Made by a program: the position numbers and the translations under genes
Source: a virus
Virus record (IMG/VR): IMGVR_UViG_3300030329_002105
Span: 1 to 37,231 of that record
Strand: one strand, 5' to 3'
DNA: 37,231 nt
Shown: positions 15,708 to 34,122 of the stretch, piece after piece
Layout of the letters: each line of letters opens with the position of its first letter
How positions within the stretch are numbered: the stretch's first letter is position 1
Notes under the pieces: model-generated
The model's input: only the letters and a program-made list of their open reading frames with translations
Databases searched by the model: none
What the model was told of the DNA's origin: nothing

Positions 15708-15732
15708 CCCTTCTATAAGTGCAACTTAATAG
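15708..15732 (-). promoter_or_regulatory. candidate phage RNA polymerase promoter, copy 3 (variant)
   Basis: On the minus strand, CTATTAAGTTGCAC followed by TTATAGAAGGG. It shares the CTATTA-RGTTGCACT block with the two identical copies at 25770 and 34097 and ends in the same GGG, with one extra base between. It stands immediately before the first gene of the structural module, where T7 has late promoters. The layout (about 20 bases, A/T-rich near the end, GGG start) is that of T7-type promoters. Confidence 0.6.
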
Positions 15733-15767
15733 GGGATTTAAGAGAAAGCCACCCTCTCAAATCCCCT
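15731..15767 (-). repeat. 14-bp inverted repeat between reductase and virion genes
   Basis: Arms AGGGGATTTGAGAG and CTCTTAAATCCCCT on the minus strand, nine-base loop, with one G-T pair. It abuts the candidate promoter and lacks a T-run, so it is not a standard terminator. It could stop or process the upstream transcript, or protect the 3' end of the reductase message. Confidence 0.7.
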
Positions 15768-15844
15768 GTGTTGCCCGATTATTTTTGAATATGGTAGTAT
15801 TCGTTAGGTTGTATTAATGTACTGGTGGGCTTCTCACGAGGCCA

Positions 15845-17809
15845 TTATTTAGTTGGACACACCCCATTCGTACATTCTTCATCTAAAATCTCTTCAAATG
15901 AGTTTGCATCATCCAAATCCACATCCTCTAATTCAGATACATAATCTTCAAATTCTTCTTTGGATACCACCTCTTGTGGAAGATATAGGTATCCTAAATC
16001 CTTTGCAGATTTAGATGGATCATTCCTCAAGAGAAACGAAACACCAACGTAGTAATTCCAATTATTAAGAATCCAATCAATAATATCTGGTACTTCCTCT
16101 TTGTCATAGGACACAGTAATAGAACAATTGTGATCGACATAAGATTCCATAATAGATTTATATGATTCCAATTGTGTTATAGCGGAGTCGTTGTTTACAT
16201 ACTTTCCGTCAACATTATCAAACTCCACATCATTCCACTCCACAGGAAAGGTGACCAGAATTCCTGATTCATCAGTTGGGTTCTCTCTAACCCGATAGCC
16301 AGATTGTTTTAGCAATGGAACAAGTGGATCGTGCTTCGAGAAATTAATATTATTAAGTATATATTTTCCTAATGGTTTGTGTATCCCCTCCGTAGTGTCC
16401 ATAATCTTGGAAAGTGTGCCTGATGGTTTGATGGTGGTAACATTTTTGGGTCTGGGTTTATGAAGTTCATCAGCAATAGAATAAGCACCATAAACGGCAA
16501 TATTAGAAAGCCTACTAAAATCATAACTGGTAACATTACTACACCTAGCAAGGCTAGTAAGTGAAACACCGCACAACCTAAGAAACTCATTGTTTTCATG
16601 CCAAGTCCTTTGTAATATTCCATCGTCTAAATTAACCAGAGTTTGTCTATAGTTTGCTCTGGCCGCCAAATATACTGCACGTTCCAATCCTGAATGATCG
16701 TCTTTAAAAGCTGCAAGGTTCACCTCTGTTAAGTTACAAAAAGATTTATTACCTAGTAGAATTTCAGCACAGGGATTGACACCAGAAAACCAAGGAGCTT
16801 TATTTCTAGCTATATCTCCATTTATAAATCCAGGTTCACTCCCACCGTTATCAAGCATGATGTTAAATATATTCTCTAGTTCTTCCTTCCTTGGTTTATT
16901 CCAAAAGATAAGAGAGTTATTTGATTGTCCACGTTGGGGGTTGTCTACCCAATAATCTTTCTTGGCTCTGGCAAATTCTTCCCACTCTGGTGAGTTGTAA
17001 TCAACCAATGCAATTTCGGCAGATCGTCTTGAGGAAAGAATTGTTCCCAACCAATTAACAATATCTAGAATGTCTATTCTCGTTAGTAATTGTCCAGCCC
17101 TCTTGTTTAATATGAAGGCCACTCGCTCAAAAGCTTTTGAAATTTGTTCATCTCCAGCACTAATCCATCCATAGCCTGAAAGACGTTCTCCGGCAGGTCG
17201 GAGTTCTCTGAAATCAAGAATGAGAGTTGAAGCTCTTTGTTTTCCTGACAATAACTTTCCAATACTTTTAGCCCAAGCTTCCGCGGAATCTCCAAACTTG
17301 ATTGTCCATTCCTTATTATCATTGTTGAATTCTTCAATGTTATGTTCATTGCCACCCTTAGTAGTTCTGTTAGATCGAATAACTTTAATGGTAGGGATGT
17401 ATTCAGCGAACCCACTTAGAGTTCCTACTTGTGGTTTAAAGCCCACACCGCATCCCTGAAGTAGTAACCACAGTACATCTACAACATCGTGTACTGTTTC
17501 TACTTTGGTAAAACTACAATTGAATTGTGAGGCTTCTCTTTCCTTGGCAATCTTAGTTCCACCCAACCAAAGCGTTCTACCTGACATACATATTTTTTTA
17601 TCCAGTATTAATTGTTTTAATTCTTTTAGCTCATCACAAACGTCAGCGTAGTCTGAAGAGTATTTACCTAATGCTCTGTCCCATAACCAAGCTTGATGTT
17701 GAATAACCCTATCAACTATTTGTTCCCATGTTTCAAAGAGTGACCCCTCTTCATTGAGGGGTCTTGAATAAGTTCTCCTTGTAATTATTTGTGACCTTAA
17801 ACTTCCCAA
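15845..17809 (-). CDS. nrdJ: class II (B12-dependent) ribonucleotide reductase, monomeric type, 654 aa
   Basis: Reduces ribonucleoside triphosphates to deoxy forms using adenosylcobalamin. All five cysteines of the Lactobacillus leichmannii enzyme have counterparts: C98 (FNCSF), C347 (NPCAEI, radical cysteine), C358 (SFCNLTEVNL), and C646 and C651 at the C-terminus (CTNGVC). The spacings C347-C358 and C646-C651 equal those of the model enzyme (408-419, 731-736). At 654 aa it is shorter than the bacterial 739 aa. The start is TTG at 17809, with AAGGAG inside the end of the upstream gene. It needs host cobalamin. It works with the MazG-like and dNMP kinase genes of the same operon to supply dNTPs. 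Confidence 0.96.
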   Translation of the reverse strand: MGSLRSQIITRRTYSRPLNEEGSLFETWEQIVDRVIQHQAWLWDRALGKYSSDYADVCDELKELKQLILDKKICMSGRTLWLGGTKIAKEREASQFNCSFTKVETVHDVVDVLWLLLQGCGVGFKPQVGTLSGFAEYIPTIKVIRSNRTTKGGNEHNIEEFNNDNKEWTIKFGDSAEAWAKSIGKLLSGKQRASTLILDFRELRPAGERLSGYGWISAGDEQISKAFERVAFILNKRAGQLLTRIDILDIVNWLGTILSSRRSAEIALVDYNSPEWEEFARAKKDYWVDNPQRGQSNNSLIFWNKPRKEELENIFNIMLDNGGSEPGFINGDIARNKAPWFSGVNPCAEILLGNKSFCNLTEVNLAAFKDDHSGLERAVYLAARANYRQTLVNLDDGILQRTWHENNEFLRLCGVSLTSLARCSNVTSYDFSRLSNIAVYGAYSIADELHKPRPKNVTTIKPSGTLSKIMDTTEGIHKPLGKYILNNINFSKHDPLVPLLKQSGYRVRENPTDESGILVTFPVEWNDVEFDNVDGKYVNNDSAITQLESYKSIMESYVDHNCSITVSYDKEEVPDIIDWILNNWNYYVGVSFLLRNDPSKSAKDLGYLYLPQEVVSKEEFEDYVSELEDVDLDDANSFEEILDEECTNGVCPTK

Positions 17810-17995
17810 TTACCAAATCTCCTTACACGCTACGCAAAGGTCTTTTGCAATTGTAAAAGATTCTTTGAACCCTCTCCATAATCCTTCAACTACCGCAATA
17901 GGTGGTATAAAGAAAAACATAAAGGGAAAACAAATTACCAACAACATCCTTCTTGCTACATTATTTTCTATTCCAGCAAATCCACCACTAATCAT
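17810..17995 (-). CDS. small membrane protein, 61 aa
   Basis: One clear membrane segment, RMLLVICFPFMFFFIPPIAVV (about residues 16-36), with a short N-terminus and a polar C-terminus containing two Cys (LCVACKEIW). The ATG at 17995 overlaps the upstream stop (ATGA), and its stop directly adjoins the TTG start of the reductase, whose ribosome site lies within this gene. The tight coupling supports it being expressed. No family recognised. A role in the membrane during replication is possible but unsupported. Confidence 0.75.
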   Translation of the reverse strand: MISGGFAGIENNVARRMLLVICFPFMFFFIPPIAVVEGLWRGFKESFTIAKDLCVACKEIW

Positions 17996-18462
17996 TCTCC
18001 ACCCCTTTCAATACTTGAATTAACTTTATCCCACATCCTATGAATAAACCTATCTAGCTGTGGGGGTTTATAATTTTTTCCCTTTAGAACTTTTCCATCT
18101 TCACGCTTTACTGGTTTACCATCTTCCAGTTTACTCATGTTGGATTGGTGTATATCCTTGATTAAACCATCAAGATCAATTCCATAAGTAACAGCAAATC
18201 CCGAAATTACATATTGTAAATCTGCAAGCTCTTTAAAAATTTCCAGCATATTTTCTGGTGGTTTACCTCGCATAATATCTACAGCACCCGAAGCCAACTC
18301 TTCATTAAGTTCTTGCATTTCCTCTTTAATAAGATTCCAACGTAATTCAAATAAAGGTAAATCAGTCATCACAACGGAGATGGGTTGCCCCATCCCCCTG
18401 TGAAACTGTTTGACTAAGTTCTCCCTATGAACACTCCACTCATTAAGCTTGTATCGTGACAT
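17992..18462 (-). CDS. MazG-like / PRA-PH-type nucleotide pyrophosphohydrolase, 156 aa
   Basis: All-alpha NTP pyrophosphatase. The metal-binding pattern is visible as KEEMQELNEELA (about residues 46-57) and KELADLQYVISG (76-87), the EExxE...ExxD signature of the MazG/PRA-PH superfamily. The loop SNMSKLEDGKPVKREDGKVLKGKNYKPP is typical of the phage and bacterial members acting on dNTPs or on phosphoribosyl-ATP-like substrates. The gene overlaps the exonuclease gene by 20 bases and the next gene by four. Being next to the ribonucleotide reductase, it probably trims or balances nucleotide pools. The exact substrate cannot be read; relatives in other phages hydrolyse dATP/dGTP, dCTP or dUTP. Confidence 0.85.
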   Translation of the reverse strand: MSRYKLNEWSVHRENLVKQFHRGMGQPISVVMTDLPLFELRWNLIKEEMQELNEELASGAVDIMRGKPPENMLEIFKELADLQYVISGFAVTYGIDLDGLIKDIHQSNMSKLEDGKPVKREDGKVLKGKNYKPPQLDRFIHRMWDKVNSSIERGGE

Positions 18463-19201
18463 TTGGAGACTCCCATAAAATAGGTTTATTATTTACAAAG
18501 TCATAATCTTTGAATCTAAGAATACGAGCTACTCTAGCTTGGATAAGTGCCTCATCTTCGGTGAGTCCACGTTTAATGTAGGCATCCACCACAGTCTCCC
18601 ATGTTGGATTGTCACCAAGAATTTTCTTAGCAGTCTTCTCGCCAACACTAGGGCAACCCGAATACCCATCAGTCACATCACCAGTTAGAGTTTGAAACAA
18701 GTGCCAGTAGTCGGCCTCTTCTTCTGTGATAGTTTTGATACCATCTTCAGGTCGCTTAGTGTTGTAGAGTTTACATGGTACAGTCTTCATATCTTTATCC
18801 ATGCTGACTATAATTCGCTCATCATTCTTGTTAGGTTCTGATCCATAGATACCAAGTACATCATCACCTTCAAGCCCACTCCAAATAAGAGCATCGTGCT
18901 TCATCACCATGTACTGTCGGAGTGAAGGTAAGATCATAGGTTTTCTTTTAAGTTTCCTATTCTCTTTGTAACTAGGTAGGATATACTTCCTAAAGTTTTT
19001 GGTATCGGACAATGCAACAATAATTCTATCCGCACCTAAATCTGTTTTTAAATTCTCAAGATAATCCTCAAGTCTTCCAACTGCTTCTTTCTCATCCGCC
19101 CAAAGAACCCACAGTCCATCACCAAAATCTATAGGCGTTTCCACCTTAGATGCTAGTTGGTAAACTGTTATGTCTCCGTCCAGTAGTATTGTTCGACTCA
19201 T
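18443..19201 (-). CDS. 5'-3' exonuclease (T7 gp6-like, FEN superfamily), 252 aa
   Basis: FEN/PIN-type nuclease. Metal ligands appear in order: LLDGD (residues 6-10), GLEGDDVLG (about 113-121), VSMDKDMKT, and GDVTDGYSGCPSVGEKTA, the helix-three-turn-helix that binds duplex DNA. T7 gp6 is 300 aa and has the same role: removing RNA primers, degrading host DNA and making ends for recombination. The start ATG at 19201 has AAGGAG upstream. It follows DNA polymerase with one gene between, as in T7. Secure family call. Confidence 0.93.
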   Translation of the reverse strand: MSRTILLDGDITVYQLASKVETPIDFGDGLWVLWADEKEAVGRLEDYLENLKTDLGADRIIVALSDTKNFRKYILPSYKENRKLKRKPMILPSLRQYMVMKHDALIWSGLEGDDVLGIYGSEPNKNDERIIVSMDKDMKTVPCKLYNTKRPEDGIKTITEEEADYWHLFQTLTGDVTDGYSGCPSVGEKTAKKILGDNPTWETVVDAYIKRGLTEDEALIQARVARILRFKDYDFVNNKPILWESPNVTIQA

Positions 19202-19212
19202 TTTTCAGTCTC

Positions 19213-19260
19213 CTTAGAAGGAACAACCCTTGTTCTTTTGTAAGTACAGGGTTGCTTGGT
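19213..19260 (-). repeat. imperfect hairpin before exonuclease gene
   Basis: In the 77-base gap upstream of the exonuclease, the minus strand has CAACCCT, a loop of about 17 bases, then AGGGTTG, followed by TTCCTTCT and the ribosome site. It is a weak terminator or processing candidate. The same CAACCCT/AGGGTTG pair also occurs at 25662-25683. Confidence 0.35.
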
Positions 19261-19278
19261 TTTGGTTTATAGATTTTT

Positions 19279-19731
19279 CTATTCTTTTTTCGTTTCATTA
19301 TTTGCTGTCCTGTATATCCATTGCCATTTCTCTGGAATTATTCTCCACATATTTGGGAGTTGCCTAGTTCGGTAGGTGAATGGTATGCCAGATTCGTAGT
19401 GTGTAAATAAAAACCATCCACTTGTAGTTGCCCTAATTGAAGGACAACTATGTGCGTGTTTCACACACCATTCATCTACCTCATACCCACTATGTTGGAA
19501 CGCTAATTGAAAAGGAGTTCCAGCAATTTCAATCGTGACATGGGAAGGCACTATTTCAAGACTCCAATGTAGTGGTAGTTCTGTTTTAAGTGCGAATCCT
19601 TCCATTGCTTTGACAACTATTGGTTCAAGTTCGATGGGGTCTTCATCACCTTTTGAATGTGAAGACCACACCATTGCAACAATATAAAAAAGGGTAACCA
19701 AAACGGCTACCCTCTTTGCAAACGTATTCAA
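19279..19731 (-). CDS. hypothetical protein with N-terminal membrane/signal segment, 150 aa
   Basis: Not recognised. It starts with TTG at 19731, preceded by AAGGAG; the next in-frame ATG is 19 codons in and has no good ribosome site. Residues about 6-21 (KRVAVLVTLFYIVAMVW) form a membrane anchor or uncleaved signal, so the remainder would be periplasmic. The rest is rich in Trp, His and aromatic residues (EVDEWCVKHAHSCPSIR, two Cys that could pair). Oddly, the DNA polymerase terminator lies within codons 7-16, so the message is made only when polymerase reads through. A lysis, entry or exclusion role is conceivable, without support beyond the export signal. Confidence 0.65.
   Translation of the reverse strand: MNTFAKRVAVLVTLFYIVAMVWSSHSKGDEDPIELEPIVVKAMEGFALKTELPLHWSLEIVPSHVTIEIAGTPFQLAFQHSGYEVDEWCVKHAHSCPSIRATTSGWFLFTHYESGIPFTYRTRQLPNMWRIIPEKWQWIYRTANNETKKE
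19685..19713 (-). terminator. rho-independent terminator after DNA polymerase, inside the next ORF
   Basis: Minus strand: AGGGTAGCC, loop GTTTT, GGTTACCCT, then TTTTT. The nine-bp stem is perfect and the T-run adjoins it. It resembles the capsid and amidase terminators (core GTAGCC...GGTT). It lies about 32 bases after the DNA polymerase stop and overlaps the N-terminal codons of the 150-aa protein. Confidence 0.8.
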
Positions 19732-19744
19732 AATTTTCTCCTTG

Positions 19745-21556
19745 TTAGTGTGTTTCTGCCCAATTAGTTCCTACTTTGTACTCACCATCTAATGGACATC
19801 TAAAATTAAATTGTCTTCCAGCTTCAACAATTGAATGTATTGCTAGAGTTCCAATTATATTTTCCAAACCCCTTCGGACTTGGAGTTGCATCTCATCATG
19901 GATGTGAGCCACCATTGCCCAATCCGTTCCATACTCATAACCTTCCTTCTTCACAAGATCATGGAGTATGACTGTGGCTTTCTTCACAAGAAGACCACCA
20001 GCAGATTGAAGTAAGGTGTTCAAAGCAGAATGTTCAGAGCGACAAGACAACACTCGCCCATCTATTCCCTTTAAGTGTCCTTTCTTTTTAAGGGTTTTAA
20101 TTATGGTGTCTCTTAATTGCTTTAAGGCTGGAGTCTTAGCAAGAAATTCTTTCTTTAACTTTCTTCCTTCCTTACCAGAGCCACCAACAATCGAACCAAT
20201 CTTTGCATCACCAGCACCATAGAGAAAAGCGTAGATAAAAGTTTTTGCTTTATCTCTGGTTGGCAATCCTGCCGCCTTCTGGTTTGCAGAGTGAATGTCA
20301 CCTTCGATAATCTCCTTCACATATGCACCACCATCATACTTAGCCATATAGTGGGCAAGGCAACGAAGCTCAATACCAGAAGCATCAGCACCAACCAACT
20401 TAAAACCATCAGGTACAGTAAATAATTCTCTACACTCTTTACCATACGCAACTTTCATTGAAGGTACTTGAGCTACGTTAGGTCGTTGGTGAGTACACCT
20501 TCCAGTTACTGCACCATTAGTTGTGACAGTTCCATGAATTTTACCTTTGGGTGTAACAAGCTTTAGCCAAGCTTGTGATCCCTCACCAATCATTCCCAAC
20601 CTCTTATCCAACATAAGGTATTGGGCTAAGAGTTTTGCTTCGGGGTAGGGGAGACTATTTAAAACTGTCTCGTCAACTTGAGGCTTGCCCTCTTGAGTAA
20701 ACTGTTTAGGTTTCCAGTTATACTTATCAATCAGGCAACGTGAGATGTGATCTCTACTGCTTGGGTTAAAAGTAATCTTCTTAACCTTCACAGTAGGTAC
20801 ACCTTTCTTATACCCAAACCTTTTAGAATTAACTTTGGGTGTGAAAGGTGTTCGTACCTCCCAATCAGAAAAAGACTTCTTTAGTTCTTCAACTATCTCT
20901 CTCTTTTTATTTCCTAATTCAAGATATAGTTGTCCAGCCTTTTGTTCATCAAAAGCAAAACCTATTTCTTCTTGTTTCTGAATACAAGTTACAAAGTCAT
21001 GTTCAAGTTTGATTGCATCTAAACTGTATTCTTTTGTTTGAATTAAATCCCACAAGAGTGCGGTGACTTTTGTATCCTGAATACAATAATCAATCATTTC
21101 CTGATTTAACTTTTCCCATCCACCAGAGTAGTCACCCTTGTGGTTACCAAGTCGGTGACCCCATGCTTCGAGTGAGTGTCTTCCAATCATCTTGTTTGGA
21201 AACTCTGGTCTTCGCTCACGATATTTAAAATCATCGTTACGAATTTCAGGCCAGATCAATCGGGATAGTACAAGTGTATCCATTAACCTTGGTGCATTTG
21301 GATGAACAACTACGTTCCGAAACCAAGGATGCAACTTAATGATTACTGGAATGTCGTACTTGATTATGTTGTGACCGATTAAAACATCGGAATACATTAC
21401 CCTACGGAGACCATCTTCAATGGTTGCACCTGGGCCACCATCGCTAGTAAATGTACCAACCTCTCCGTTATCTATGTTCCGAAGAACTAAACAATGAATC
21501 TTTGAAACGTCTGGAAGTAATCCATTAGTTTCTATATCCAATATGAAGCGTTCCAT
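19745..21556 (-). CDS. DNA polymerase, family A (T7 gp5-like), 603 aa
   Basis: Replicative polymerase with 3'-5' exonuclease. Exonuclease motifs: LDIETNG (D7, E9), LIGHNIIKYD (59-68) and YCIQDTKVT (157-165). Polymerase motifs: A, DASGIELRCLAH (D391); B, RDKAKTFIYAFLYGAGD (K438, Y442); C, HIHDE (D554). The residue matching E. coli Phe762 is Tyr442. It is about 100 residues shorter than T7 gp5 (704 aa), mainly before FNPSSRDH (264-270), where T7 has its thioredoxin-binding loop. So clamp use may differ. The start ATG at 21556 has GGAGA upstream. The gene lies between dNMP kinase and a terminator. Confidence 0.97.
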   Translation of the reverse strand: MERFILDIETNGLLPDVSKIHCLVLRNIDNGEVGTFTSDGGPGATIEDGLRRVMYSDVLIGHNIIKYDIPVIIKLHPWFRNVVVHPNAPRLMDTLVLSRLIWPEIRNDDFKYRERRPEFPNKMIGRHSLEAWGHRLGNHKGDYSGGWEKLNQEMIDYCIQDTKVTALLWDLIQTKEYSLDAIKLEHDFVTCIQKQEEIGFAFDEQKAGQLYLELGNKKREIVEELKKSFSDWEVRTPFTPKVNSKRFGYKKGVPTVKVKKITFNPSSRDHISRCLIDKYNWKPKQFTQEGKPQVDETVLNSLPYPEAKLLAQYLMLDKRLGMIGEGSQAWLKLVTPKGKIHGTVTTNGAVTGRCTHQRPNVAQVPSMKVAYGKECRELFTVPDGFKLVGADASGIELRCLAHYMAKYDGGAYVKEIIEGDIHSANQKAAGLPTRDKAKTFIYAFLYGAGDAKIGSIVGGSGKEGRKLKKEFLAKTPALKQLRDTIIKTLKKKGHLKGIDGRVLSCRSEHSALNTLLQSAGGLLVKKATVILHDLVKKEGYEYGTDWAMVAHIHDEMQLQVRRGLENIIGTLAIHSIVEAGRQFNFRCPLDGEYKVGTNWAETH

Positions 21557-21564
21557 AATTTCTC

Positions 21565-23734: not shown

Positions 23735-23747
23735 AAAATCTCCTTTC

Positions 23748-23785
23748 AAAAAAAAAGAAAGGGAGCAACCGATAAGGCTACTCCC
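23748..23785 (-). terminator. rho-independent terminator between amidase and primase
   Basis: Minus strand: GGGAGTAGCC, loop TTATC, GGTTGCTCCC, then TTTC and nine T. The ten-bp stem is perfect apart from G-T pairing. The TAG stop of the amidase gene lies inside the left arm. Related to the terminators at 11708 and 19685. Confidence 0.92.
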
Positions 23786-24218: not shown

Positions 24219-24234
24219 TAGTTAATTTTCCCTT

Positions 24235-25749: not shown

Positions 25750-25769
25750 GGTGTTCCTTTCTAGGTAGA

Positions 25770-25795
25770 CCCTTTAGTAGTGCAACCTAATAGAA
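25770..25795 (-). promoter_or_regulatory. candidate phage RNA polymerase promoter, copy 2
   Basis: This 26-base stretch is identical to 34097-34122. On the minus strand it contains GTTGCACTACTAAAGGG, preceded by TTCTATTAG. The end ACTACTAAAGGG resembles the initiating part of T7-type promoters (ACTATAGGG). It lies between RNA polymerase and the first replication gene, the place where middle promoters begin in T7. Host sigma factors would not need so exact a repeat. Confidence 0.7.
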
Positions 25796-25833
25796 TAATT
25801 GCTAAATAGATATGTTTCCCATGCGGGAAGTAT

Positions 25834-28278
25834 CTAGGCAAAAAAATACTCACTCTCCAGAATCCCATTTAAGTCCAGTTCTCCAAGTGGGGGTATCTCT
25901 GGTATCATTCCAAGTTTTTCAGGTGGTAAAACGGCACACACCTCGTCACGGAACTTCTCTAACAGATTGTCCTGAAACATCTCCACAAAACAACCCCTCA
26001 AACTACTGGCTAAAATGTCTGAATCCTCTGCCAGCGTTCCGTAAGAATCGTGAATCATGGAAAAATTTTTGACTCCATTTTGGTATGCCTTATTGACAGA
26101 CAGTATCAATACCGAAGCATCCAATGAATGGACAAAGTTCGGAGCAATCCCTTGGGCTTGCCTTCTTTTGTGAAGCTTCGATGTTGGCTCAACCAAAGTC
26201 AGGTGAATGTTTTTATTTGTGGATTTTTTCTGCTTTGTACCTCGCACCACCGAATCGCCTAGCTGTGTTTTTACTCGCAACCTTTTTAGGTCGATGTAAT
26301 TTTGCATGACCACAAATCCAGAAGGTGAAGTCCAGATTATGGGAAGCTCTTCGGATGAAACTACCTTGGCTACCTCTTGAAGCCAACCCATAGCTGAACG
26401 AGCTGCAATTACAACCTCACCTATGGATGCCCAAATAATATTGGAGAGATAGATTGTCATTTTAAAACGATCATCTTCCTTCCAAGGTTCGGTGTGACCA
26501 AGTTCCACCATGTCCTTGATATAATCTTCGGTGAAGTCACGGCATGAATACCTCGTACCACCATAAGGCAGAACCATGACAGGTCTCTTGGTTGCCTTCC
26601 TTGAAATCCCAAACTCCAACCATTGCTTTGCCATGAGGTCACTAGAATTTTTTAGCTTCTCAATAACAACGTCAGCAACCTCTTTATAAATATCTTCAGG
26701 TGTGTCGGATGGGATGAGGTTTACAGCTTTGCCACCAACGTGATCCCTTAAAAGAGAAGAGAAAATCTGGATGCCATTACAAGAACCATCTTGTGCAACT
26801 GGCAAAGTTGATTCATAATTTGGATCATCCTTTATGGACTTCCACTCAAAACAAAATGCCAAAAACTGCCAAGGCTTGTCGCACTTTGACCACCAATCAA
26901 CAACGCTGAATGGATCATCGGCTGTCTTGAAAATTTTATCTTCATTTTCCTGGACCCACTTAATCCTTCCTTCAAATGAAAGCTTATCCTCACCAAACAC
27001 ATTCGCACCGTGAATCGCAAGCCAATTCATTCCCCGATCCGAAGTGATCTTTTTGCCGTGAGCAAATAGAAGGAGAGATTTTGAAAGGTCACAACCTTGG
27101 GGGTTGAGGAAGTTCGGGGTGGCATAGACTCTGCCCCTGAAGTCCAACTGGTAGGGAAAATAAATCTCATCTTCCTCTACAAACTTATTGGCAATATAAA
27201 GGAGTTTGGCTTGATGAATTTTCTTTGAGTTCTGCCTGTGATTTTCAGCGTGAATCTTTGAAGCTTGCCTTGACCAATCTTTACGAGCAACTGAATTTTC
27301 CTTGATGTCTGCCGGCTTCGGTGGAAGAGGAATAAAATCTCTTGAAGGCATCTTGCCAACACTCCAACCCAACTCCCACATTTCATCCATCACTTTTAGA
27401 ACTTGAGAATTAATTTTCCAAGGAACTTCCTGAAGGGTGTTCAAAGCCTTGTAAACTTCGGGTGTCGTTTCAGCAAGGTTTTTCATTTCCTCAAGATAAT
27501 TATTGTTGGTTGTCTTGATGAGTTTTCTTCTGATCGTTGGAGAATAATATCCACCGTCAAAGGGACAAGTCCAAGGTCGGGGTGGAACAATCATTGGAAG
27601 ATTAAAAGGTGCTAATACTTGCTTCCTCTCAATCTCTTCTTCGATCCAGTTAAGGGTTTCATTCGTAGCCTGAAGAAATGAGGGTGTTCCTTTTCGTTGC
27701 CTTTGAATTGAAATTTCTGCAGCTCCTGTAGCGGATATAAAAATCTCAATCAGTTTCATTCCAAGGTGGAGCTTGTCTTGTTTATTCCAACCTTCCCAAA
27801 CAATATCTGCCTTGTTTGCGGAGTGAATGAGTACGGCTCTCTTCTTTTCAAATGATGAGTAGCGTTCAAGGTCTCGAATTAGAGTTCCCCATAGTTCGGG
27901 ATTTTCCTTTTCAAACGCAACAAACCTGGCCTGATCTTCAACCGCTTTGGCAATGGTCAATGCACAGGATTGAAGAGTCTTCACTCGACTGATGCAGTTG
28001 ACAATTGTTTTACAAGTTATGAAAGCAACCACAGGCAAATCATTACCTCGAAGATATTTACCAGCCCTATGTTTTCTACCTACGGTCTTGGATGATTTTT
28101 TGAGGAAAGCTTCAATACCATGAACGATAGGTTCAATGAATTCGGAAGTCATTTTCACCCCATAAGGTGAGTTTCCTTCCATACCTTTCTCACGGTTCTG
28201 GTGGATGGAATCGGTGTATCGTTTGACTCCCATCCCGATCATTTCCCTTTCAAGTTCTAATTGTTTTTCTAGACTCAT
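25834..28278 (-). CDS. single-subunit DNA-directed RNA polymerase (T7 gp1-like), 814 aa
   Basis: Transcribes middle and late phage genes. Catalytic residues by comparison with T7 (883 aa): D497 in QDGSCNGIQIFSS, K564 and Y572 in RKATKRPVMVLPYGG, and D744 in MIHDSYGT. The motif LDFRGRVYA lies at 378-386. The end is FFA, as T7 ends in FAFA, needed in the active site. In the specificity loop (about 668-690) the T7 DNA-reading residues R746, N748, R756 and Q758 are replaced (QLGDSVVRGTKQKK), so the promoter must differ from that of T7. The ATG at 28278 has AAGGAG upstream. No phage-type promoter precedes it, fitting early transcription by the host enzyme. Confidence 0.97.
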   Translation of the reverse strand: MSLEKQLELEREMIGMGVKRYTDSIHQNREKGMEGNSPYGVKMTSEFIEPIVHGIEAFLKKSSKTVGRKHRAGKYLRGNDLPVVAFITCKTIVNCISRVKTLQSCALTIAKAVEDQARFVAFEKENPELWGTLIRDLERYSSFEKKRAVLIHSANKADIVWEGWNKQDKLHLGMKLIEIFISATGAAEISIQRQRKGTPSFLQATNETLNWIEEEIERKQVLAPFNLPMIVPPRPWTCPFDGGYYSPTIRRKLIKTTNNNYLEEMKNLAETTPEVYKALNTLQEVPWKINSQVLKVMDEMWELGWSVGKMPSRDFIPLPPKPADIKENSVARKDWSRQASKIHAENHRQNSKKIHQAKLLYIANKFVEEDEIYFPYQLDFRGRVYATPNFLNPQGCDLSKSLLLFAHGKKITSDRGMNWLAIHGANVFGEDKLSFEGRIKWVQENEDKIFKTADDPFSVVDWWSKCDKPWQFLAFCFEWKSIKDDPNYESTLPVAQDGSCNGIQIFSSLLRDHVGGKAVNLIPSDTPEDIYKEVADVVIEKLKNSSDLMAKQWLEFGISRKATKRPVMVLPYGGTRYSCRDFTEDYIKDMVELGHTEPWKEDDRFKMTIYLSNIIWASIGEVVIAARSAMGWLQEVAKVVSSEELPIIWTSPSGFVVMQNYIDLKRLRVKTQLGDSVVRGTKQKKSTNKNIHLTLVEPTSKLHKRRQAQGIAPNFVHSLDASVLILSVNKAYQNGVKNFSMIHDSYGTLAEDSDILASSLRGCFVEMFQDNLLEKFRDEVCAVLPPEKLGMIPEIPPLGELDLNGILESEYFFA

Positions 28279-28320
28279 TTTTAGCTCCTTTTTTATAGAG
28301 AAGTTATCGATGTAGTAAGG

Positions 28321-28354
28321 GTTACGTTACAACTGTCACGTTTTGTAACGTGAC
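28321..28354. repeat. GTYACG repeats, left side of the tRNA/att core
   Basis: Plus strand: GTTACGTTAC (28321-28330), GTCACGTTTT (28335-28344) and the inverted GTAACGTGAC (28345-28354). The last two form the dyad GTCACGTT-TTGT-AACGTGAC. Similar elements lie on the other side of the tRNA at 28574-28598. They may be arm-type integrase sites or an operator in the leader of RNA polymerase. Confidence 0.6.
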
Positions 28355-28384
28355 GTAAAAAATCCTTTCGCTATGGGAAGTATT

Positions 28385-28423
28385 AAGAAAAAAGAAAAGC
28401 CCAGCCCCGAAGGGCTAGACTTT
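28385..28423 (-). terminator. rho-independent terminator downstream of integrase and tRNA
   Basis: Minus strand: AGCCC, tetraloop TTCG, GGGCT, then GGGC and a T-rich run (TTTTCTTTTTT). The TTCG tetraloop is classic. It separates the integrase-tRNA unit from the RNA polymerase gene. Confidence 0.85.
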
Positions 28424-28456
28424 ATATGAGGTTAGTTATGTTTCCCAAGAGGGTAG

Positions 28457-28491
28457 CACTTCACAACGGATTTTAAGTCCGAAGGGAAGTG
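28457..28491 (-). repeat. anticodon-arm-like hairpin beside tRNA-Leu
   Basis: Outer arms CACTTC and GAAGTG (6 bp) enclose a 4-bp stem CGGA/TCCG with the seven-base loop CTTAAAA on the minus strand. That loop is identical to the anticodon loop of the tRNA next to it. GATTTTAAGTC is an 11-base direct repeat (28469-28479 and 28533-28543). The hairpin overlaps the tRNA 3' end by two bases. It may be a second core-type integrase site or the remains of a former att site. Confidence 0.65.
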
Positions 28492-28573
28492 GCCTGAGAG
28501 GGACTCGAACCCTCAAACCCTTACGAGTGCAAGATTTTAAGTCTTGTGTGTATGCCAATTCCACCATCAGGCC
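28490..28573 (-). tRNA. tRNA-Leu (anticodon UAA), complete; likely attP core
   Basis: The 84-base cloverleaf includes a perfect seven-bp acceptor stem (GGCCTGA/TCAGGCC) and discriminator A at 28490. The anticodon arm is CAAGA-CTTAAAA-TCTTG with anticodon TAA. A long class II variable arm follows (about GCACTCGTAAGGGTTT). The T arm is GAGGG-TTCGAGT-CCCTC. No CCA is encoded. All parts look intact, so it could be a working tRNA. It lies 38 bases after the integrase stop, on the same strand, which is the usual place of attP in tRNA-targeting phages of this group; integration would then be into a host leucine tRNA gene. Confidence 0.93.
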
Positions 28574-28598
28574 GTTACGCAACGTGTTACCTCGTGAC
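28574..28598. repeat. GTYACG repeats, right side of the tRNA/att core
   Basis: Plus strand GTTACGCAAC (28574-28583), then AACGTGTTAC (28581-28590) and CTCGTGAC (28591-28598). These share the GTYACG/CGTRAC core with the elements at 28321-28354. Together they flank the tRNA, as arm-type sites flank the core in many attP regions. Confidence 0.5.
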
Positions 28599-28611
28599 GA
28601 TGATACTAACA

Positions 28612-29634
28612 TTAGTTGGCCTTTCTTAAAATAGTTAATTCTGGCTTAGACTCTAGAACCTTGACCGCATCCATAAGGTTGGATGGTGCTAGGTGAGCAT
28701 AGCGGAGAGTGATCTGGATGGATTTGTGTCCCATCCATTGTTGTACTACTTTGAGACCGATCCCTCGTTGGACTAAACGAGAAGCACAAGTGTGGCGAAG
28801 GCAATGCGGTACAAACTGGCTATCGTCTGCCAACCCCATGATGGTCTTGAGTCGAGCCCAAGGTGTTCTCATCCAATCTTTGGAGAACATGAAGGGTTTC
28901 AACTCACCATGCATCCTTCTAGATAAAATTGAGGCCACTCTCTTGGTCATTGGTACTGATCTGGAATCATCATTCTTGGTGTCCCAAACCGTGACCATGT
29001 TGGTTTCAAAATCAATGTCCCTGAAGGACAGGGATCGTAATTCACCAACCCTGAAACCAGTATCAATGAGGCAGACAACCGCATCATAGAAATCATCCTG
29101 ACTCATTTGAGAAATAATCTGAAGCATCCTTGCTTCTTCCTCATAGGTCACCCATCGGATTCGGCCTTTTCCTTCCTTCTTTCGAGGCATGAAAGGCTTT
29201 GCCTTGAGGTGACCTCGCTGTACTGCAACTGTCAACATCTTGGACAATGAAGCCAGTTTGCGGTTGATGGTTGCATCGGACTTCTTTGCATCTTTGAGGA
29301 AGTCAATGTAGTCATCAATCGCATCGGTGTCGATGGTGTCTAAAGGTCTCTTCTCACCAAAAAACTTAATAGCTTCTTTGGCATTACGGATGCTTGACAC
29401 TTCGGCTTTTGAACCATCCCAAACTGATTCGCTAGTTCTTCTAAATGCATCTTCCAGAGTCCATGTGGATTTAACTGCCGGCCTGGATGATGCACCGTAG
29501 CGAAGCTCTTCAAACTTTTCCTTTTCCAAGAGTTTAGCTTCCTCTTCGGAGTGGACAGTCTGAACAAATCTAGGTTGACCCTTAACCGTGACATCGACTT
29601 GAAATTTACCATTAGGTTTTAATCGAATTGCCAC
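28612..29634 (-). CDS. int: tyrosine-type site-specific integrase, 340 aa
   Basis: Catalyses phage integration and, with help, excision. Catalytic residues: R195 (DTGFRVGELRSLSF), K220 (WDTKNDDSR), H277 and R280 (PHCLRHTCASRL), H303 (WMGHKSIQIT) and Y312 (LRYAHLAP). The SAM-like core-binding domain spans about 55-145; the N-terminal 50 residues form a small arm-binding type domain (KPNGKFQVDVTVKGQPRFVQTV). It starts at GTG 29634, one base overlapping the TAG of the MarR-like gene, with AGGAGA upstream. The tRNA-Leu just after the stop is its likely target. All key residues are present, so it is probably active. Confidence 0.96.
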   Translation of the reverse strand: MAIRLKPNGKFQVDVTVKGQPRFVQTVHSEEEAKLLEKEKFEELRYGASSRPAVKSTWTLEDAFRRTSESVWDGSKAEVSSIRNAKEAIKFFGEKRPLDTIDTDAIDDYIDFLKDAKKSDATINRKLASLSKMLTVAVQRGHLKAKPFMPRKKEGKGRIRWVTYEEEARMLQIISQMSQDDFYDAVVCLIDTGFRVGELRSLSFRDIDFETNMVTVWDTKNDDSRSVPMTKRVASILSRRMHGELKPFMFSKDWMRTPWARLKTIMGLADDSQFVPHCLRHTCASRLVQRGIGLKVVQQWMGHKSIQITLRYAHLAPSNLMDAVKVLESKPELTILRKAN

Positions 29635-29978
29635 TATAAAATCTCCTGTAAAGTTTTGGCAAAGCTCTCACCCTTCTTGGTCAAAGTCAGAGTTTTGACT
29701 CTTTGATCCATAGGATCGTACTCTGTTTTGATTAGGTTCAAACCAGCCTTTTTCTGATAAGTCCAATCAGATAAATTGGACACATTACGAGTGATTGTCG
29801 CATTTTGAAAATCTAGTTGTCTGGCAACATCACTCATGGTTGTTACCTTTCCCTTCCTGACATTGTTTGCAACTAGCAGAAATACACAAAGCGTTTGAAT
29901 AGGCATCTCCTTATTCAAAAGGCGAACCCTTTCCAACACTTTTGCTAATCTTTCAAGTTGGTTTCCAGAAGAAGGCAT
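29634..29978 (-). CDS. MarR-like winged-helix regulator, 114 aa
   Basis: Winged helix-turn-helix: helices PIQTLCVFLLVANN and TTMSDVARQLDFQNATITRNVSNLSD (recognition helix about 63-75), then a wing and LTLTKKGESFAKTLQEIL, the normal MarR ending. Shorter than bacterial MarR proteins (about 140 aa). It is coupled to the integrase by a one-base stop-start overlap, so it probably controls or is controlled with integration. Its operator may be one of the nearby dyads (30292-30311 or the GTYACG repeats). The ATG at 29978 has AAAGGAG upstream. A lysogeny switch role is inferred from the pairing only. Confidence 0.85.
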   Translation of the reverse strand: MPSSGNQLERLAKVLERVRLLNKEMPIQTLCVFLLVANNVRKGKVTTMSDVARQLDFQNATITRNVSNLSDWTYQKKAGLNLIKTEYDPMDQRVKTLTLTKKGESFAKTLQEIL

Positions 29979-29995
29979 TTATAAAACTCCTTTGT

Positions 29996-30175
29996 TTAGT
30001 TCCAATGATAAGTTTGTCGGGATTGGTATGCCAGTATTACCTCGTACTTATTGTAGCTGATAATAATTTCATTGCCTACCCTTTTGAATCTAATACTTTT
30101 GACTGGAAATTCATACTTCTGTACTAAAATTGAAAATCGTTTGAAGAAAATAAAGTTAAAAACTATGGGATTCAT
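29996..30175 (-). CDS. small basic hypothetical protein upstream of MarR-like gene, 59 aa
   Basis: ATG at 30175 has AGGAGA about ten bases upstream. It ends 17 bases before the MarR-like start. The product is hydrophobic at first (MNPIVFNFIFFKRFSILV), then basic and beta-like (FPVKSIRFKRVGNEIIISYNKYEV). The composition looks like a true protein, in contrast to the flanking AT-rich non-coding sequence. It would be the first gene of the integrase operon. An excisionase or regulator is possible at this place, but no such motif can be seen. Confidence 0.65.
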   Translation of the reverse strand: MNPIVFNFIFFKRFSILVQKYEFPVKSIRFKRVGNEIIISYNKYEVILAYQSRQTYHWN

Positions 30176-30291
30176 TTCTATCTGTCTCCTGATGTTGATA
30201 AAATTTAGAGATAAGAAAAGCTAAAAATGAACTGTAGTTACTCTATAAACCCCCCTTTCTTTAAACTAAATGGTTGCGACAAATCATCTCT

Positions 30292-30311
30292 ACTGATATT
30301 ATCCCATCAGT
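30292..30311 (-). promoter_or_regulatory. operator-like dyad over an extended -10 element
   Basis: ACTGAT-8-ATCAGT inverted repeat. On the minus strand its centre reads TGGGATAAT, an extended -10 form (TGN then GATAAT). It is 120 bases before the 59-aa gene. A repressor bound here would block transcription of the MarR-integrase operon. Function is inferred. Confidence 0.4.
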
Positions 30312-30440
30312 TTTATCTCAAGATAATTTCATTTAGTGGTTAATATTTTCCTAAACCAGCACCTTGCTGAATATAGGTAATTTTACTACTTAGAAAATAC
30401 CAGAATTCTACCAAACTTGCAATACTATAAAATCAAAAAT

Positions 30441-30506
30441 CGAGCCGGCCCTGGAATTGTAGCTTCGGGTCGGATGATATTACTAACTCAAGCCCAGGCC
30501 GAAGCC
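30441..30506 (-). ncRNA. GC-rich island with strong fold, candidate structured RNA or terminator
   Basis: Within very AT-rich surroundings. Minus strand starts GGCTTCGGCCTGGG and ends CCAGGGCCGGCTCG, with arms CGGCCTGG and CCAGGGCCG able to pair with one bulge; an alternative pairing is GCTTCGG with CCGAAGC. After it comes ATTTTTGATTTT. It could be a terminator for the 100-aa/methyltransferase operon or a small RNA. No known riboswitch was recognised. Confidence 0.45.
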
Positions 30507-30780
30507 AAAAAAAAATGTCAAAATTTCCCTAAAAAAGCAAAATTCATAAATGCAAAAACCCAATGCCAGAAAATTGACAAAAACTATACTTAAATTTTAA
30601 AGGCTATAAAATCCTGAATAATCCGTATAAAAACCCCCAATAAAATTAAACTTCAAATAATTGACATTATAAGACCTTTAAAAAGACCTCGAAAAAAAAA
30701 ATAAAATTATTTTTTATTCTTACCTTCAAAAACTATCAAAATTATAAAACAATGGCATACGTTTTAAGGCCATTTGAAGA

Positions 30781-30810
30781 GCTATAAAAGGTATATAACC
30801 CTTTATAGCC
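30781..30810 (-). repeat. hairpin after the 100-aa gene
   Basis: GCTATAAAAGG paired to CCCTTTATAGCC across a seven-base loop (one bulge). It lies 26 bases after the stop of the 100-aa gene. No T-run adjoins it. Confidence 0.5.
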
Positions 30811-30835
30811 TATCAGATAAGCTTAAAAAGGAATT

Positions 30836-31138
30836 TTACTTATCAATATATATCCTAATTGTTTCGGCATATTCTAAAGGTAGACTTTGGTCATAATGCC
30901 GAAGGTCTAAACCGTCAGGCCTATTTAAAGGTGATCTTCGGCCTGAACCCCTGAACCTTACCTTGTACCCTAAAGACCTTAAAGCTTGTCTTAAAATGGA
31001 AAGGATAGGCTTTGTATCCTCGTTATAGGCCACCTTCGCAATATAACGGTGTGGCCTATCCTGATTAAAATTTAAATCAATAAATCTTTTACTATCTCTA
31101 AAGGTTATACCTTCGGTTTCACTAAAGTATGCTTCCAT
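30836..31138 (-). CDS. hypothetical phage protein, 100 aa
   Basis: Start chosen at ATG 31138 (MEAYFSETEGITF), with AGGTGG five bases upstream; the open frame goes three codons further to a GTG. Basic central part LRQALRSLGYKVRFRGSGRRSP and a conserved-looking end, LRHYDQSLPLEYAETIRIYID. Similar YDQ-LPLEYA endings occur in small hypothetical proteins of phages, from memory; function unknown. It follows the methyltransferase after a 149-base spacer containing a long hairpin. The word GGCC is common here, as in the neighbouring genes. Confidence 0.75.
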   Translation of the reverse strand: MEAYFSETEGITFRDSKRFIDLNFNQDRPHRYIAKVAYNEDTKPILSILRQALRSLGYKVRFRGSGRRSPLNRPDGLDLRHYDQSLPLEYAETIRIYIDK

Positions 31139-31223
31139 AAAAACCACCTTTCCTTAAAAGGCCATTCATTAGGCCATTAATAAAAAACCACCGTTAAAGA
31201 ATCAAACTAGGCTTAATTCCTTA

Positions 31224-31277
31224 AAGGTGGCCTTCTCACATCCAATATAAGCTCGAATTATGAGAAGACCTTACCTT
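31224..31277 (-). repeat. long hairpin after the DNA methyltransferase gene
   Basis: Minus strand AAGGT-AA-GGTCTTCTCA, loop of about 22 bases, TGAGAAGGCC-ACCTT: ten bp (one G-T) extended by five more across a two-base bulge. No T-run. A likely mRNA end or attenuator between methyltransferase and the next gene. Confidence 0.6.
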
Positions 31278-31287
31278 TACCCTTGAT

Positions 31288-32541
31288 CTATATTGCCTCT
31301 TCTAATGAATCAGCTAAACACAGATTATACTCTTCAATATCTAATTCTTGTTGCTTCTTAACGTTCCTAAGTATCCAAACAAATACATTAATAGTAAAAC
31401 CATTCCCAAGCATTTTATAACGCTGGCTATTTGAAATAGGTTTCATTACTCCGTGTATATCTTGCCCATAGGAAGTGTATTTATCAGGCACAGTTTGAGA
31501 CCTTTCGCACTCTAAAACGGTTATATACCGCAACCCTTTTTTGTCAGGTATGCCAAAAAACCTTTGAGAAGAGCAACCTTTAAAATGTGAGGCCTCTATC
31601 ATTTGCACCTTTTCCCTATCACCCTGAATTCTTAAAGATTTATTTTTAAGCTTTCCGTGTCGCTCTATCCATTGAAGCATTTTTTCAGAATAGTAATAAT
31701 TATCAGGAGCATTTTCTTCCTTTATATCCATAAAGGTTAAACCCATAGAAGTATAATTATCAGGAATAGTTTGAAGCCTTTCGCACTCTAAAGGTGAAAG
31801 TTTTCGCCAATTGTTAGGCTCAATAAATACTTTGGGTTCTCTGTGTCCACCTTGCATGGTAGTTAAACACGAAGCCTTTCCAGTATCCTTATAAACTCTT
31901 TTTATAGATTCATTACCCTTTATATTTGCATTGCCTATATGGTGGCAGTCGGAGTTAAAAGTTTTTTCTTCAAACTTCAATTCCAATTGTCCACCTTTAG
32001 TTTTTGGATTCTCTTCTAAAATATCTTTTAGAACCGTGTCGCTGGTTTTATAAGAATCGATTTCTATATTAGACCAGTAAAGCCTTTGCCTATTCTGTGC
32101 TGAAAAATCCTTACTATTAATCAACACAGGTTCAACACCTAATTTTTCAGAAATGATATTTTCCCATTTCTTTTTCATTTTTACATTTTCTAAAATGAAT
32201 TTTATATTAGGGTTCTTTTTTCTTAGCAATTCTAAAACCTCAAAGGTTTTATAGAATAATCCAGACCTTGAACCTTCTAGGCCTTTTCCATTTGCTTTAC
32301 TAAAAGATAAATCTTGACACGGAAAACCAGCACTTAAAATATCTATCTTAGGTAATAAGAAAAAAGGGATTTTAGGATTATTGATATCACCTAATTCTAT
32401 AGTGGAAGGAAAGTTTAACCGTGTAACACTTGAAGCGTATTTATCAATCTCACACGAAAAATAATTATCATACTTTATACCAGCCTTTACCAATGCTAAT
32501 TGAAAACCAGAGCATCCATCAAATAAAGATAAAACATTCAT
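31288..32541 (-). CDS. C5-cytosine-specific DNA methyltransferase, 417 aa
   Basis: Methylates carbon 5 of cytosine in DNA. Motifs: I SLFDGCSGFQLAL (5-17), IV GFPCQDLSFS (72-81; catalytic C75), VI LENV (117-120), VIII QNRQRLYWSNI (149-159), IX RKLSPLECERLQTIPDNYT (246-264) and X SQRYKMLGNGFTINV (372-386). Unusually, a second motif IX, YITVLECERSQTVPDKYT (339-356), stands between IX and X, giving a 110-residue insertion. All catalytic motifs are intact. No cognate restriction enzyme is seen, so it is an orphan enzyme, probably protecting phage DNA. The target is unreadable. The ATG at 32541 has AAAGGAA upstream. It belongs to the accessory module between the genome ends and the integrase operon. 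Confidence 0.93.
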   Translation of the reverse strand: MNVLSLFDGCSGFQLALVKAGIKYDNYFSCEIDKYASSVTRLNFPSTIELGDINNPKIPFFLLPKIDILSAGFPCQDLSFSKANGKGLEGSRSGLFYKTFEVLELLRKKNPNIKFILENVKMKKKWENIISEKLGVEPVLINSKDFSAQNRQRLYWSNIEIDSYKTSDTVLKDILEENPKTKGGQLELKFEEKTFNSDCHHIGNANIKGNESIKRVYKDTGKASCLTTMQGGHREPKVFIEPNNWRKLSPLECERLQTIPDNYTSMGLTFMDIKEENAPDNYYYSEKMLQWIERHGKLKNKSLRIQGDREKVQMIEASHFKGCSSQRFFGIPDKKGLRYITVLECERSQTVPDKYTSYGQDIHGVMKPISNSQRYKMLGNGFTINVFVWILRNVKKQQELDIEEYNLCLADSLEEAI

Positions 32542-32613
32542 TTTTAATTTCCTTTCGGTTAAATTTGCTTAATAGAGAATTTTACTTAATAGCAATAATT
32601 CGTATAAAAAAAG

Positions 32614-33351
32614 TTAAACTTGTTGAACAAATTCTGTGTCTTGTTTATTCGCAGAACCTTTAGCTCGAAGGCCTACAATTGTTTGAGGTTTATCGAATAT
32701 CCTCATGTCGTGTAAATCTCCGTCAATTACTGGATAATCAATATTGTTAAAGCAAAAAGTTTTTGGAAGAGGTTTATCTCGTTTAACATTAAAAACCACA
32801 CTTACATTTGAAATGGAATTTTCAAGAAGGTAGGTTGCATTATCTCCGTTTGTCCCATCATAAGAGAACGTCAAATGATAATCAGGATTGTTACGATATG
32901 AAATTACCCTGTTATAGTTTTTGGTATAGTCATATAAACAATCGAAAGGCCTTTCTTCTTTCGGCAATGCTAAAAGGCTTTTAACAATTTTATCTGTGTC
33001 GCTTGTACCGTTTGGCCTATAAGCGAAAAGTTTTCCTTTCCTTTTTGCTTTTTTATAAACCTTGACTAATTCTTTTAAAAGCAATTCAAAAAATAATGGA
33101 TAATCTTGAAAAAATAACTTTGTTCTTTTAACCATTGCCTTCTTATTCATTCGCAACCTTCCAGAACCTTTTAAGCAACCTTCAAAGCATTGTTCTGAAA
33201 ATGGACAAAGTATCTTGTTTGGTAGTAAATAAGTTAAAGCATTAATCCATTCTGGATAGGCCTTCTCTGTTTTCTCAGTTTTAACTGTGGTAGAAATTAA
33301 ACAAGGTAATTTCTCAATTAAGAGTTTTTGCAATATAGTTAAGTTTTCCAT
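32614..33351 (-). CDS. GP88/DUF7227-like phage protein of unknown function, 245 aa
   Basis: A family widespread in phages and plasmids, known here by its ordered blocks: CPFSEQCFEGCL (C49, C55, C59; a CX5CX3C cluster), RPNGTSD, YDYTKNYNRV, YHLTFSYDGTNGDNA, NVSVVFNVK, VIDGDLHDMRIFD and the final VGLRAKGSANKQDTEF. The three cysteines with repeated beta-strand blocks recall radical-SAM or metal-cluster TIM barrels, but that is only a resemblance and no function is established. The family name is from memory. The ATG at 33351 has AAAGG upstream. It precedes the DNA methyltransferase by 72 bases. Confidence 0.75.
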   Translation of the reverse strand: MENLTILQKLLIEKLPCLISTTVKTEKTEKAYPEWINALTYLLPNKILCPFSEQCFEGCLKGSGRLRMNKKAMVKRTKLFFQDYPLFFELLLKELVKVYKKAKRKGKLFAYRPNGTSDTDKIVKSLLALPKEERPFDCLYDYTKNYNRVISYRNNPDYHLTFSYDGTNGDNATYLLENSISNVSVVFNVKRDKPLPKTFCFNNIDYPVIDGDLHDMRIFDKPQTIVGLRAKGSANKQDTEFVQQV

Positions 33352-33369
33352 TTTAGAGACCTTTCTTAT

Positions 33370-33471
33370 CTAGTAAGTTTTTAATAAAAAAAATACAAGG
33401 TGAATAATTACATAACTAAAGGTAAAGCCTAAAAAATACATTGTTAACAATTCAATAAATGATGTTTTCAT
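33370..33471 (-). CDS. tiny membrane protein, 33 aa
   Basis: ATG at 33471 with AGGAAAGG five bases upstream, the same ribosome site as other genes of this module. One or two hydrophobic segments occupy nearly all of it (LLTMYFLGFTFSYVIIHLVF). It ends 18 bases before the GP88-like start. Too short to assign; a membrane role is likely. Confidence 0.5.
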   Translation of the reverse strand: MKTSFIELLTMYFLGFTFSYVIIHLVFFLLKTY

Positions 33472-33798
33472 TTAATACCTTTCCTAATAAGTTAAATTAT
33501 CTGGAAAGTTTAAGGTATCTATAAAGGAAGTAAAGCAAAAAAAATAAATTGCATGGTATGTATAATGGATGGATAAATTTAAAATTTTACGTTGTCAATA
33601 AATTGAATGATGCCAATATTAAACCACAATGGATATATTATCCCTCGTGTATCCTATCTAATGGCCTTCGATGCTACGCACGTCACATAAATGGCACGAG
33701 GCGAGAGCTTTTCGGCTCGCCCTGGCGTATTTAATGAATAGATTTTCGGCCTATCGCACATGGGGTAAATGGGGTTCGATGCTATATCATATATCCCC
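33472..33798. other. non-coding region, probable site of the physical genome ends and early promoters
   Basis: No convincing reading frame. Minus strand has a consensus -35 TTGACA at 33593-33598, followed after 17 bases by TATCCA, a poor -10. A GC-rich folded stretch lies at 33660-33735. TTCGATGCTA is directly repeated at 33667-33676 and 33775-33784. In T7 order the terminal repeats and early promoters fall between the last post-terminase gene and the first early gene, which here is 33.4-34.1 kb. The exact ends cannot be seen in a single-copy assembly. Confidence 0.45.
33671..33734. ncRNA. GC-rich nested hairpin, candidate structured element
   Basis: Plus strand: TACGC ... GGCGAG, ten-base loop, CTCGCC ... 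GCGTA, so that a 6-bp hairpin is nested in a 5-bp stem. GC-rich amid AT-rich sequence. No T-run on either strand. It may be an RNA element, a packaging site or a remnant of a mobile element. Confidence 0.3.
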
Positions 33799-33963
33799 TC
33801 ACATTTTTCTACCAAAATAGTCTTGTTTAGGTGGGTAGACTATAGACCATTGACCACATTGGCATAACCAGGTGGGCTTGCTTACAGGAATATTAATCAT
33901 GCTCTCTAGGAGATTAGGTAAGGGTGTCTCCTTTTTAGGGGGATTAGTTAGGGTGGTCTTCAC
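33799..33963 (-). CDS. early small protein with CXC motif, 54 aa
   Basis: Starts at GTG 33963 with AAGGAG ten bases upstream. It is the first frame after the promoter at 34097-34122. The product is proline-rich at first (MKTTLTNPPKKETPLPNLLE) and ends KPTWLCQCGQWSIVYPPKQ, whose paired Cys and Trp look like half of a zinc ribbon. Codons 3-6 form one arm of an 11-bp inverted repeat (33947-33957 with 34031-34041), which could fold the start region. Small proteins against host functions sit at this position in T7. No homologue recognised. Confidence 0.6.
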   Translation of the reverse strand: MKTTLTNPPKKETPLPNLLESMINIPVSKPTWLCQCGQWSIVYPPKQDYFGRKM

Positions 33964-34041
33964 TTCGGGTAATCTCCTTGGCTATTTAAGTTAAACTTTA
34001 AGTGTTACTTGTCTATTCTACTTATTTATAACCACCCTAAC
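33947..34041 (-). repeat. 11-bp inverted repeat enclosing a ribosome site
   Basis: Minus strand GTTAGGGTGGT at 34041-34031 and ACCACCCTAAC at 33957-33947, perfect, 73 bases apart. The loop contains AAGGAG and the GTG start of the 54-aa gene. It may control translation of that gene. Confidence 0.65.
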
Positions 34042-34096
34042 TATATCCTTCTATATAGGCCATTCTAGGTCTACTTTAAGTAATCCTATATACTCC

Positions 34097-34122
34097 CCCT
34101 TTAGTAGTGCAACCTAATAGAA
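34097..34122 (-). promoter_or_regulatory. candidate phage RNA polymerase promoter, copy 1
   Basis: Identical over 26 bases to 25770-25795 and similar to 15708-15732. On the minus strand it ends GCACTACTAAAGGGGGAG. It stands after the post-terminase genes and before the 54-aa gene, near the inferred left end of the phage genome. In T7, phiOL lies there and helps replication and DNA entry. Confidence 0.7.

Follow-up and report, generated by a model that had tools for sequence, protein, structure and literature searches.

Three predicted promoters of a temperate T7-like phage and the proposed pairing of their recognition box with residues of the phage RNA polymerase

Promoters tend to be particular to each T7-like lineage, and a new sequence was therefore to be expected in the genome analysed here, a 37,231-base viral record taken at its full length (the window). 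In the T7 RNA polymerase (RNAP), promoter positions -11/-10, -9, and -8 are read by N748, R756, and Q758, respectively (PMC5937735). For LUZ100, a temperate T7-like phage of Pseudomonas, promoters phi1-phi8 have been mapped by ONT-cappable-seq and a MarR-like protein has been proposed for repressor control (PMC10134795). The RNAP promoter of the marine cyanophage Syn5, ATTGGGCACCCGTAA, has also been characterised (PMC3950665), so that promoters of marine T7-like phages, described in the earlier note as hard to find, are not wholly unknown. Like the window, Syn5 represents a marine T7-like phage that has a promoter to itself, but the two differ in sequence and lineage; promoters are not mentioned in the genome paper of the closest cultured roseophages (PMC11092137).

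The window represents a temperate T7-like phage (Autographiviridae), in which nearly all genes are coded on the minus strand and 8.5% of the sequence is noncoding (Table 1). Its single-subunit RNAP, the cognate enzyme that a T7-class promoter calls for in the same genome, was identified by matches to PHROG 414 (E 2e-261), Pfam RNA_pol (E 1e-111), and T7 RNAP (E 3e-128), and its closest relatives are only ~47% identical. The RNAP gene is followed by genes for SSB, endonuclease, amidase, primase/helicase, DNA polymerase, exonuclease, and ribonucleotide reductase (RNR). Judging from gene order, the natural genome end would lie between terL and the early genes, since the record was opened inside the virion genes. 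LUZ100 shares this gene order, and its RNAP is ~39% identical to that of the window. A tRNA-Leu near the integrase, also present in LUZ100 and Pasto, is a possible attachment site.

Table 1. Features of the window considered in this study, in order of transcription
Feature	Coordinates	Strand	Remarks
terL	36284-34596	minus	first in transcription order; 984-nt gap follows
Site A, TTCTATTAGGTTGCACTACTAAAGGG	34122-34097	minus	candidate promoter after terL, right-end/phiOR-like position; exact 26-bp repeat
DNA methyltransferase	32541-31288	minus	among early genes
Transcriptional regulator, MarR-like	29978-29634	minus	PHROG 9665
Tyrosine integrase	29634-28612	minus	
tRNA-Leu (TAA)	28573-28489	minus	between integrase and RNAP
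Overlapping inverted repeats (GTTACGTTACAA/TTGTAACGTGAC; GTCACGTT/AACGTGAC)	28321-28358	minus	just upstream of RNAP gene
RNAP, single-subunit T7-class, 814 aa	28278-25834	minus	
Specificity-loop segment R668-T694	26197-26277	minus	from alignments
Loop insertion of ~13 residues (~679-691)	26206-26244	minus	placed before H692
Site B, TTCTATTAGGTTGCACTACTAAAGGG	25795-25770	minus	38 bp past RNAP stop codon, before SSB/replication genes
RNR	17809-15845	minus	then portal, scaffold, capsid, and tail genes
Hairpin	15731-15767	minus	touches front of site C; 16-bp stem, without T run
Site C, CTATTAAGTTGCACTTATAGAAGGG	15732-15708	minus	variant, between RNR and portal/virion genes

Sites A, B, and C are entirely noncoding and together form a direct-repeat family, the only one in the window with three copies, the third being given as 15709-15743. 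Site C departs from the 26-mer by three changes and a 1-nt insertion (one 1-nt gap in the alignment). The two identical 26-base copies and their variant, as described in the earlier note, were confirmed by repeat and shuffle tests. With at most three mismatches, the 17-mer core found two sites against 0.07 expected, and two sites appeared in 0/100 shuffles; the alignment score of site C was 32 against a mean best of 23.9 (sd 1.7) in 200 Markov genomes, none of which scored as high. Chance origin is excluded for A and B, and separately for C; the GTTGCAC core by itself is not rare (five minus-strand and three plus-strand copies in the window). The sites were correctly described as lying in the transcribed orientation, since the minus strand carries nearly all genes, and as a family they occur as several coding-strand copies in intergenic gaps before gene modules. 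Placement before gene blocks holds for B (replication) and C (virion) but only loosely for A and the early block, because A follows terL and is still ~750 nt upstream of the earliest gene recognised in that block.

Only two further stretches in the viral collection contain an exact match to the 17-mer core. L004 is near-identical to the window, and L003, with ~85% identical DNA, keeps site A at 20/20 bases (34097-34116, TAGGTTGCACTACTAAAGGG) between diverged flanks and behind a small upstream gene that ends differently, indicating that its conservation has a cause other than coding. A single-sequence scan gave no close RNAP relatives and an SSB-anchored scan no close relative covering site B; B- and C-type sites were compared in distant relatives only. 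Among the post-TerL regions of 22 terminase relatives, a clear box was found only in L013. A 24-nt block adjoining site A, ATAGGATTACTTAAAGTAGACCTA (34066-34089), is fully kept in L003 and has a partial ACTTAAAGT copy further on; it is possibly related to the terminal repeat, packaging, or replication.

Distant relatives were compared by an anchored search for 17-mers from the gap after the RNAP gene that have further copies on that strand, the reverse strand serving for comparison; the search recovered the experimentally mapped LUZ100 promoters as a positive control. It found the GGTTGCAC box in the Roseobacter phages CRP-171 and CRP-361, in Bordetella phage BB8, and in many uncultured phages. 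Site-B equivalents are present in CRP-171, CRP-361, BB8, L104, L109, and others. BB8 has four GGTTGCAC sites, all at canonical places (on either side of RNAP, before portal, and after terL), and CRP-171 has five intergenic ones plus a sixth within a gene, whereas its reverse strand has no copy. Equivalents of site C were found in L275 (AGTTGCCC), CRP-171 (16270), and BB8 (19070), and L275 has in common with the window a small gene after RNR; the L275 record (G001) carries RGTTGCMC four times on the coding strand, two copies flanking RNAP, and three times on the other strand. The position of site A is also occupied in LUZ100 (phi8), BB8 (40995), and CRP-171 (38216). Loss of the motif at equivalent places in relatives, named in the earlier note as the outcome that would speak against it, was thus checked, and the motif was present, A in L003 and B/C-type sites in distant phages. 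The same search gave no motif in the Votkovvirus pelagiphages HTVC200P and HTVC119P.

The sites have a T7-class promoter layout, with an AT-rich stretch at -17 to -13, a box at -12 to -8, a CAC-type core, an AT-rich melting region, and a purine, A, at +1. The register was set by comparing 34 sites with CAC placed at -7 to -5; at +1, a position not used to choose sites, G occurs in 23 of the 31 non-window sites, the three window rows being left out of the count. All three window sites have A there, and GGG begins at +4 (A and B) or +5 (C), that is, 3 or 4 nt after the predicted start. This varying distance argues that GGG is not the start, and a start at GGG, as predicted earlier, is not the best prediction, since the usual-G position falls on an A upstream of it. 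Among the closest known systems is SP6, which has sites such as AATTAGGTGACACTATAGAAG (L184, 8411) that share ATTAGGT..CACTA...AAG and the register with the window, and in which Arg at 748 pairs with GG. SP6 differs in having GA rather than TG at -9/-8 and Lys at 756 rather than His with a 13-aa loop insertion; a promoter of SP6 specificity (GGTGA at -12 to -8, Arg/Lys at 748/756) was rejected, as the window has GGTTG and Lys/His. The CACTAAAGGG-like 3′ part of the window site resembles the T3 promoter, but T7 and T3 have a different -12 to -8 box, and in the register that the window shares with its relatives the GGG does not fall at +1.

The box varies with the residues predicted to read it. 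Among the 169 RNAPs whose downstream gap could be used, the box, defined as [AG]GTTGC[AC], lies behind the RNAP gene in 14/17 enzymes with Tyr at 756, 1/67 with Lys, and 2/34 with Arg; in L211, one of the two Arg exceptions, a short insertion displaces its Tyr. With an aromatic residue at 756 the box was present in 16/23 loci vs 4/146 otherwise (naive Fisher p 1e-13, the rows being non-independent). All loci with a repeated GGTTGC or AGTTGC motif have Lys at 748 and Tyr at 756, whereas Asp or Glu at 748 pairs with CC-containing motifs and never with GGTTG. On the tree the box label changes 12 times, at least 8 of which are forced by well-supported branches, and residue and box switch together in the sister pairs L109/L185, L211/L219, L200/L152, and L180/LUZ100. 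L276 (Tyr-Leu-Ser) and L277 (Tyr-Cys-Gln) were chosen by box, with an aromatic predicted before the loop was seen, and both have Tyr at 756. A first strict out-of-sample test in prophage-like loci (exact GTTGCAC, [YH]L[TIG]) gave 1/3 vs 4/75 (p 0.18), the lack of significance being due to a false loop match in L199, the AGGTTGCCC variant of L211, and CGTTGCAC stretches at RNAP ends with other loops; the box definition was widened after it, so that the residue-position test is partly post hoc. Our results favour, with some reservation, a simple, recurrent code of T7-class polymerases in which Lys748 plus an aromatic at 756 would read GGTTG at -12 to -8 and Asp/Glu748 would read CC, a pairing gained or lost many times among temperate Autographiviridae; the window enzyme would do the same through His and a 13-residue loop extension.

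In the window loop (RVKTQLGDSVVRGTKQKKSTNKNIHLTL), K670, H692, and T694 correspond by alignment to T7 N748, R756, and Q758, and L693 is nearly invariant in A3. The loop segment has 53 aa, compared with 37-42 in the other RNAPs compared, T7 included; L245, a Pseudomonas prophage-like RNAP, also has a long loop (55 residues). The insertion makes the residue assignment less certain, and AlphaFold gave pLDDT <50 for residues 676-696, at the tip of the strand pair E662-667/E695-702. Lys at 748 fits the GG class by sequence, and across the group the box follows positions 748, 756, and 758; the window, with His instead of Tyr, lies just outside the set of enzymes from which the rule was derived, and its own residue assignment rests on alignment by hand. 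CRP-171, CRP-361, and BB8 have a Tyr-Leu-Thr/Ile loop and the GGTTGCAC box at equivalent gene positions but, unlike the window, mostly G at +1 and an extra site upstream of RNAP. LUZ100 likewise has promoters after RNAP (phi2/phi3), before the virion genes, and after terL, but its promoter is ATTACCACACAGGTATGG with Asp/Leu at 748/756, and one lies upstream of RNAP.

Taken together, conservation in a diverged relative, equivalent boxes elsewhere, and covariation with the loop support the proposal in the earlier note that these are cognate sites of the phage RNA polymerase, and the three sites are very probably promoters of the phage's own RNAP in the SP6/T7 register. It is very unlikely that the repeats are instead binding sites of another phage protein, for example the MarR-like regulator or a factor for replication or packaging. 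Three copies could suit a regulator, and the conserved 24-nt block beside site A in L003 indicates that the region holds other signals. However, the motif is without dyad symmetry and follows the specificity-loop residues of the RNAP in many lineages, and the inverted repeats upstream of RNAP, which differ from it in sequence, are the likely operator.

It is still less probable that the sites act in the transcript as processing or terminator elements. A strong hairpin does adjoin site C (-23.8 kcal/mol, z -4.5, 0/200 shuffles) and may stop upstream transcription, but the fold at site A is insignificant (z -0.15) and that upstream of B weak (z -1.65), Rfam has no match except the tRNA, and the covariation partner is a DNA-reading loop; explanations by hairpin or Rfam family were accordingly rejected. 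The chance that the sites are host sigma-70 promoters is close to nil: they do precede gene blocks, yet sigma-70-like matches overlap none of the three and occur at the shuffled rate, and the conserved box lacks a -35/-10 layout. A sigma-70 identity was rejected as -35/-10 hexamers with 16-18 nt spacing are absent over the sites.

As promoters of the phage RNAP, the sites could work as follows. The AT-rich CTATTA would provide the upstream contact, GGTTG (AGTTG in site C) would be read in the major groove by K670, H692, and T694, and CAC would serve as the shared core, after which TACT or TTAT would be melted and RNA would begin at the next A. From these sequence features we infer polymerase binding, start sites, and expression classes: the host polymerase would first make the phage RNAP, the replication genes would then be expressed from site B and the virion genes from site C, and transcription from site A, which lies beyond terL at the end of the genome, would run through the terminal region and reach the early side of a concatemer. 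By analogy with T7 phiOR or LUZ100 phi8, site A would be a right-end (phiOR-like) site and not an early-gene promoter. The phage promoter upstream of RNAP, present in most relatives including LUZ100, is missing in the window, where that place holds the inverted repeats, a candidate operator of the MarR-like regulator. It seems, then, that the window RNAP does not amplify its own expression through a phage promoter, and a repressor may control it, comparable to the proposal for LUZ100.

The window sites represent a predicted new promoter sequence in a familiar promoter class, and six of the motif strings were not found in the literature searched, which included few subscription papers. They provide a concrete, testable pair of polymerase and promoter for a temperate T7-like phage from the sea, in a group where most transcription signals lack annotation, and open the lysis/lysogeny wiring of abundant ocean phages to testing. 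A rule from loop residue to box could predict promoters in uncultured phages from sequence alone, and polymerase-promoter pairs are sought as orthogonal transcription tools.

HTVC019P-type pelagiphages (L095, L099, L101, L126-L131, L150, and L175) have their own repeated post-RNAP motif, AAGTTACACTATTAG or AAGTACCCATAGTAG, apparently their undescribed promoters. The window also encodes a holin of the GTA_holin_3TM family (Pfam PF11351; 36474-36869), a family often found in phages of Alphaproteobacteria. The DNA methyltransferase gene contains a 45-nt imperfect direct repeat (31472-31516 and 31748-31792), and its protein matches methyltransferase families in two stretches.
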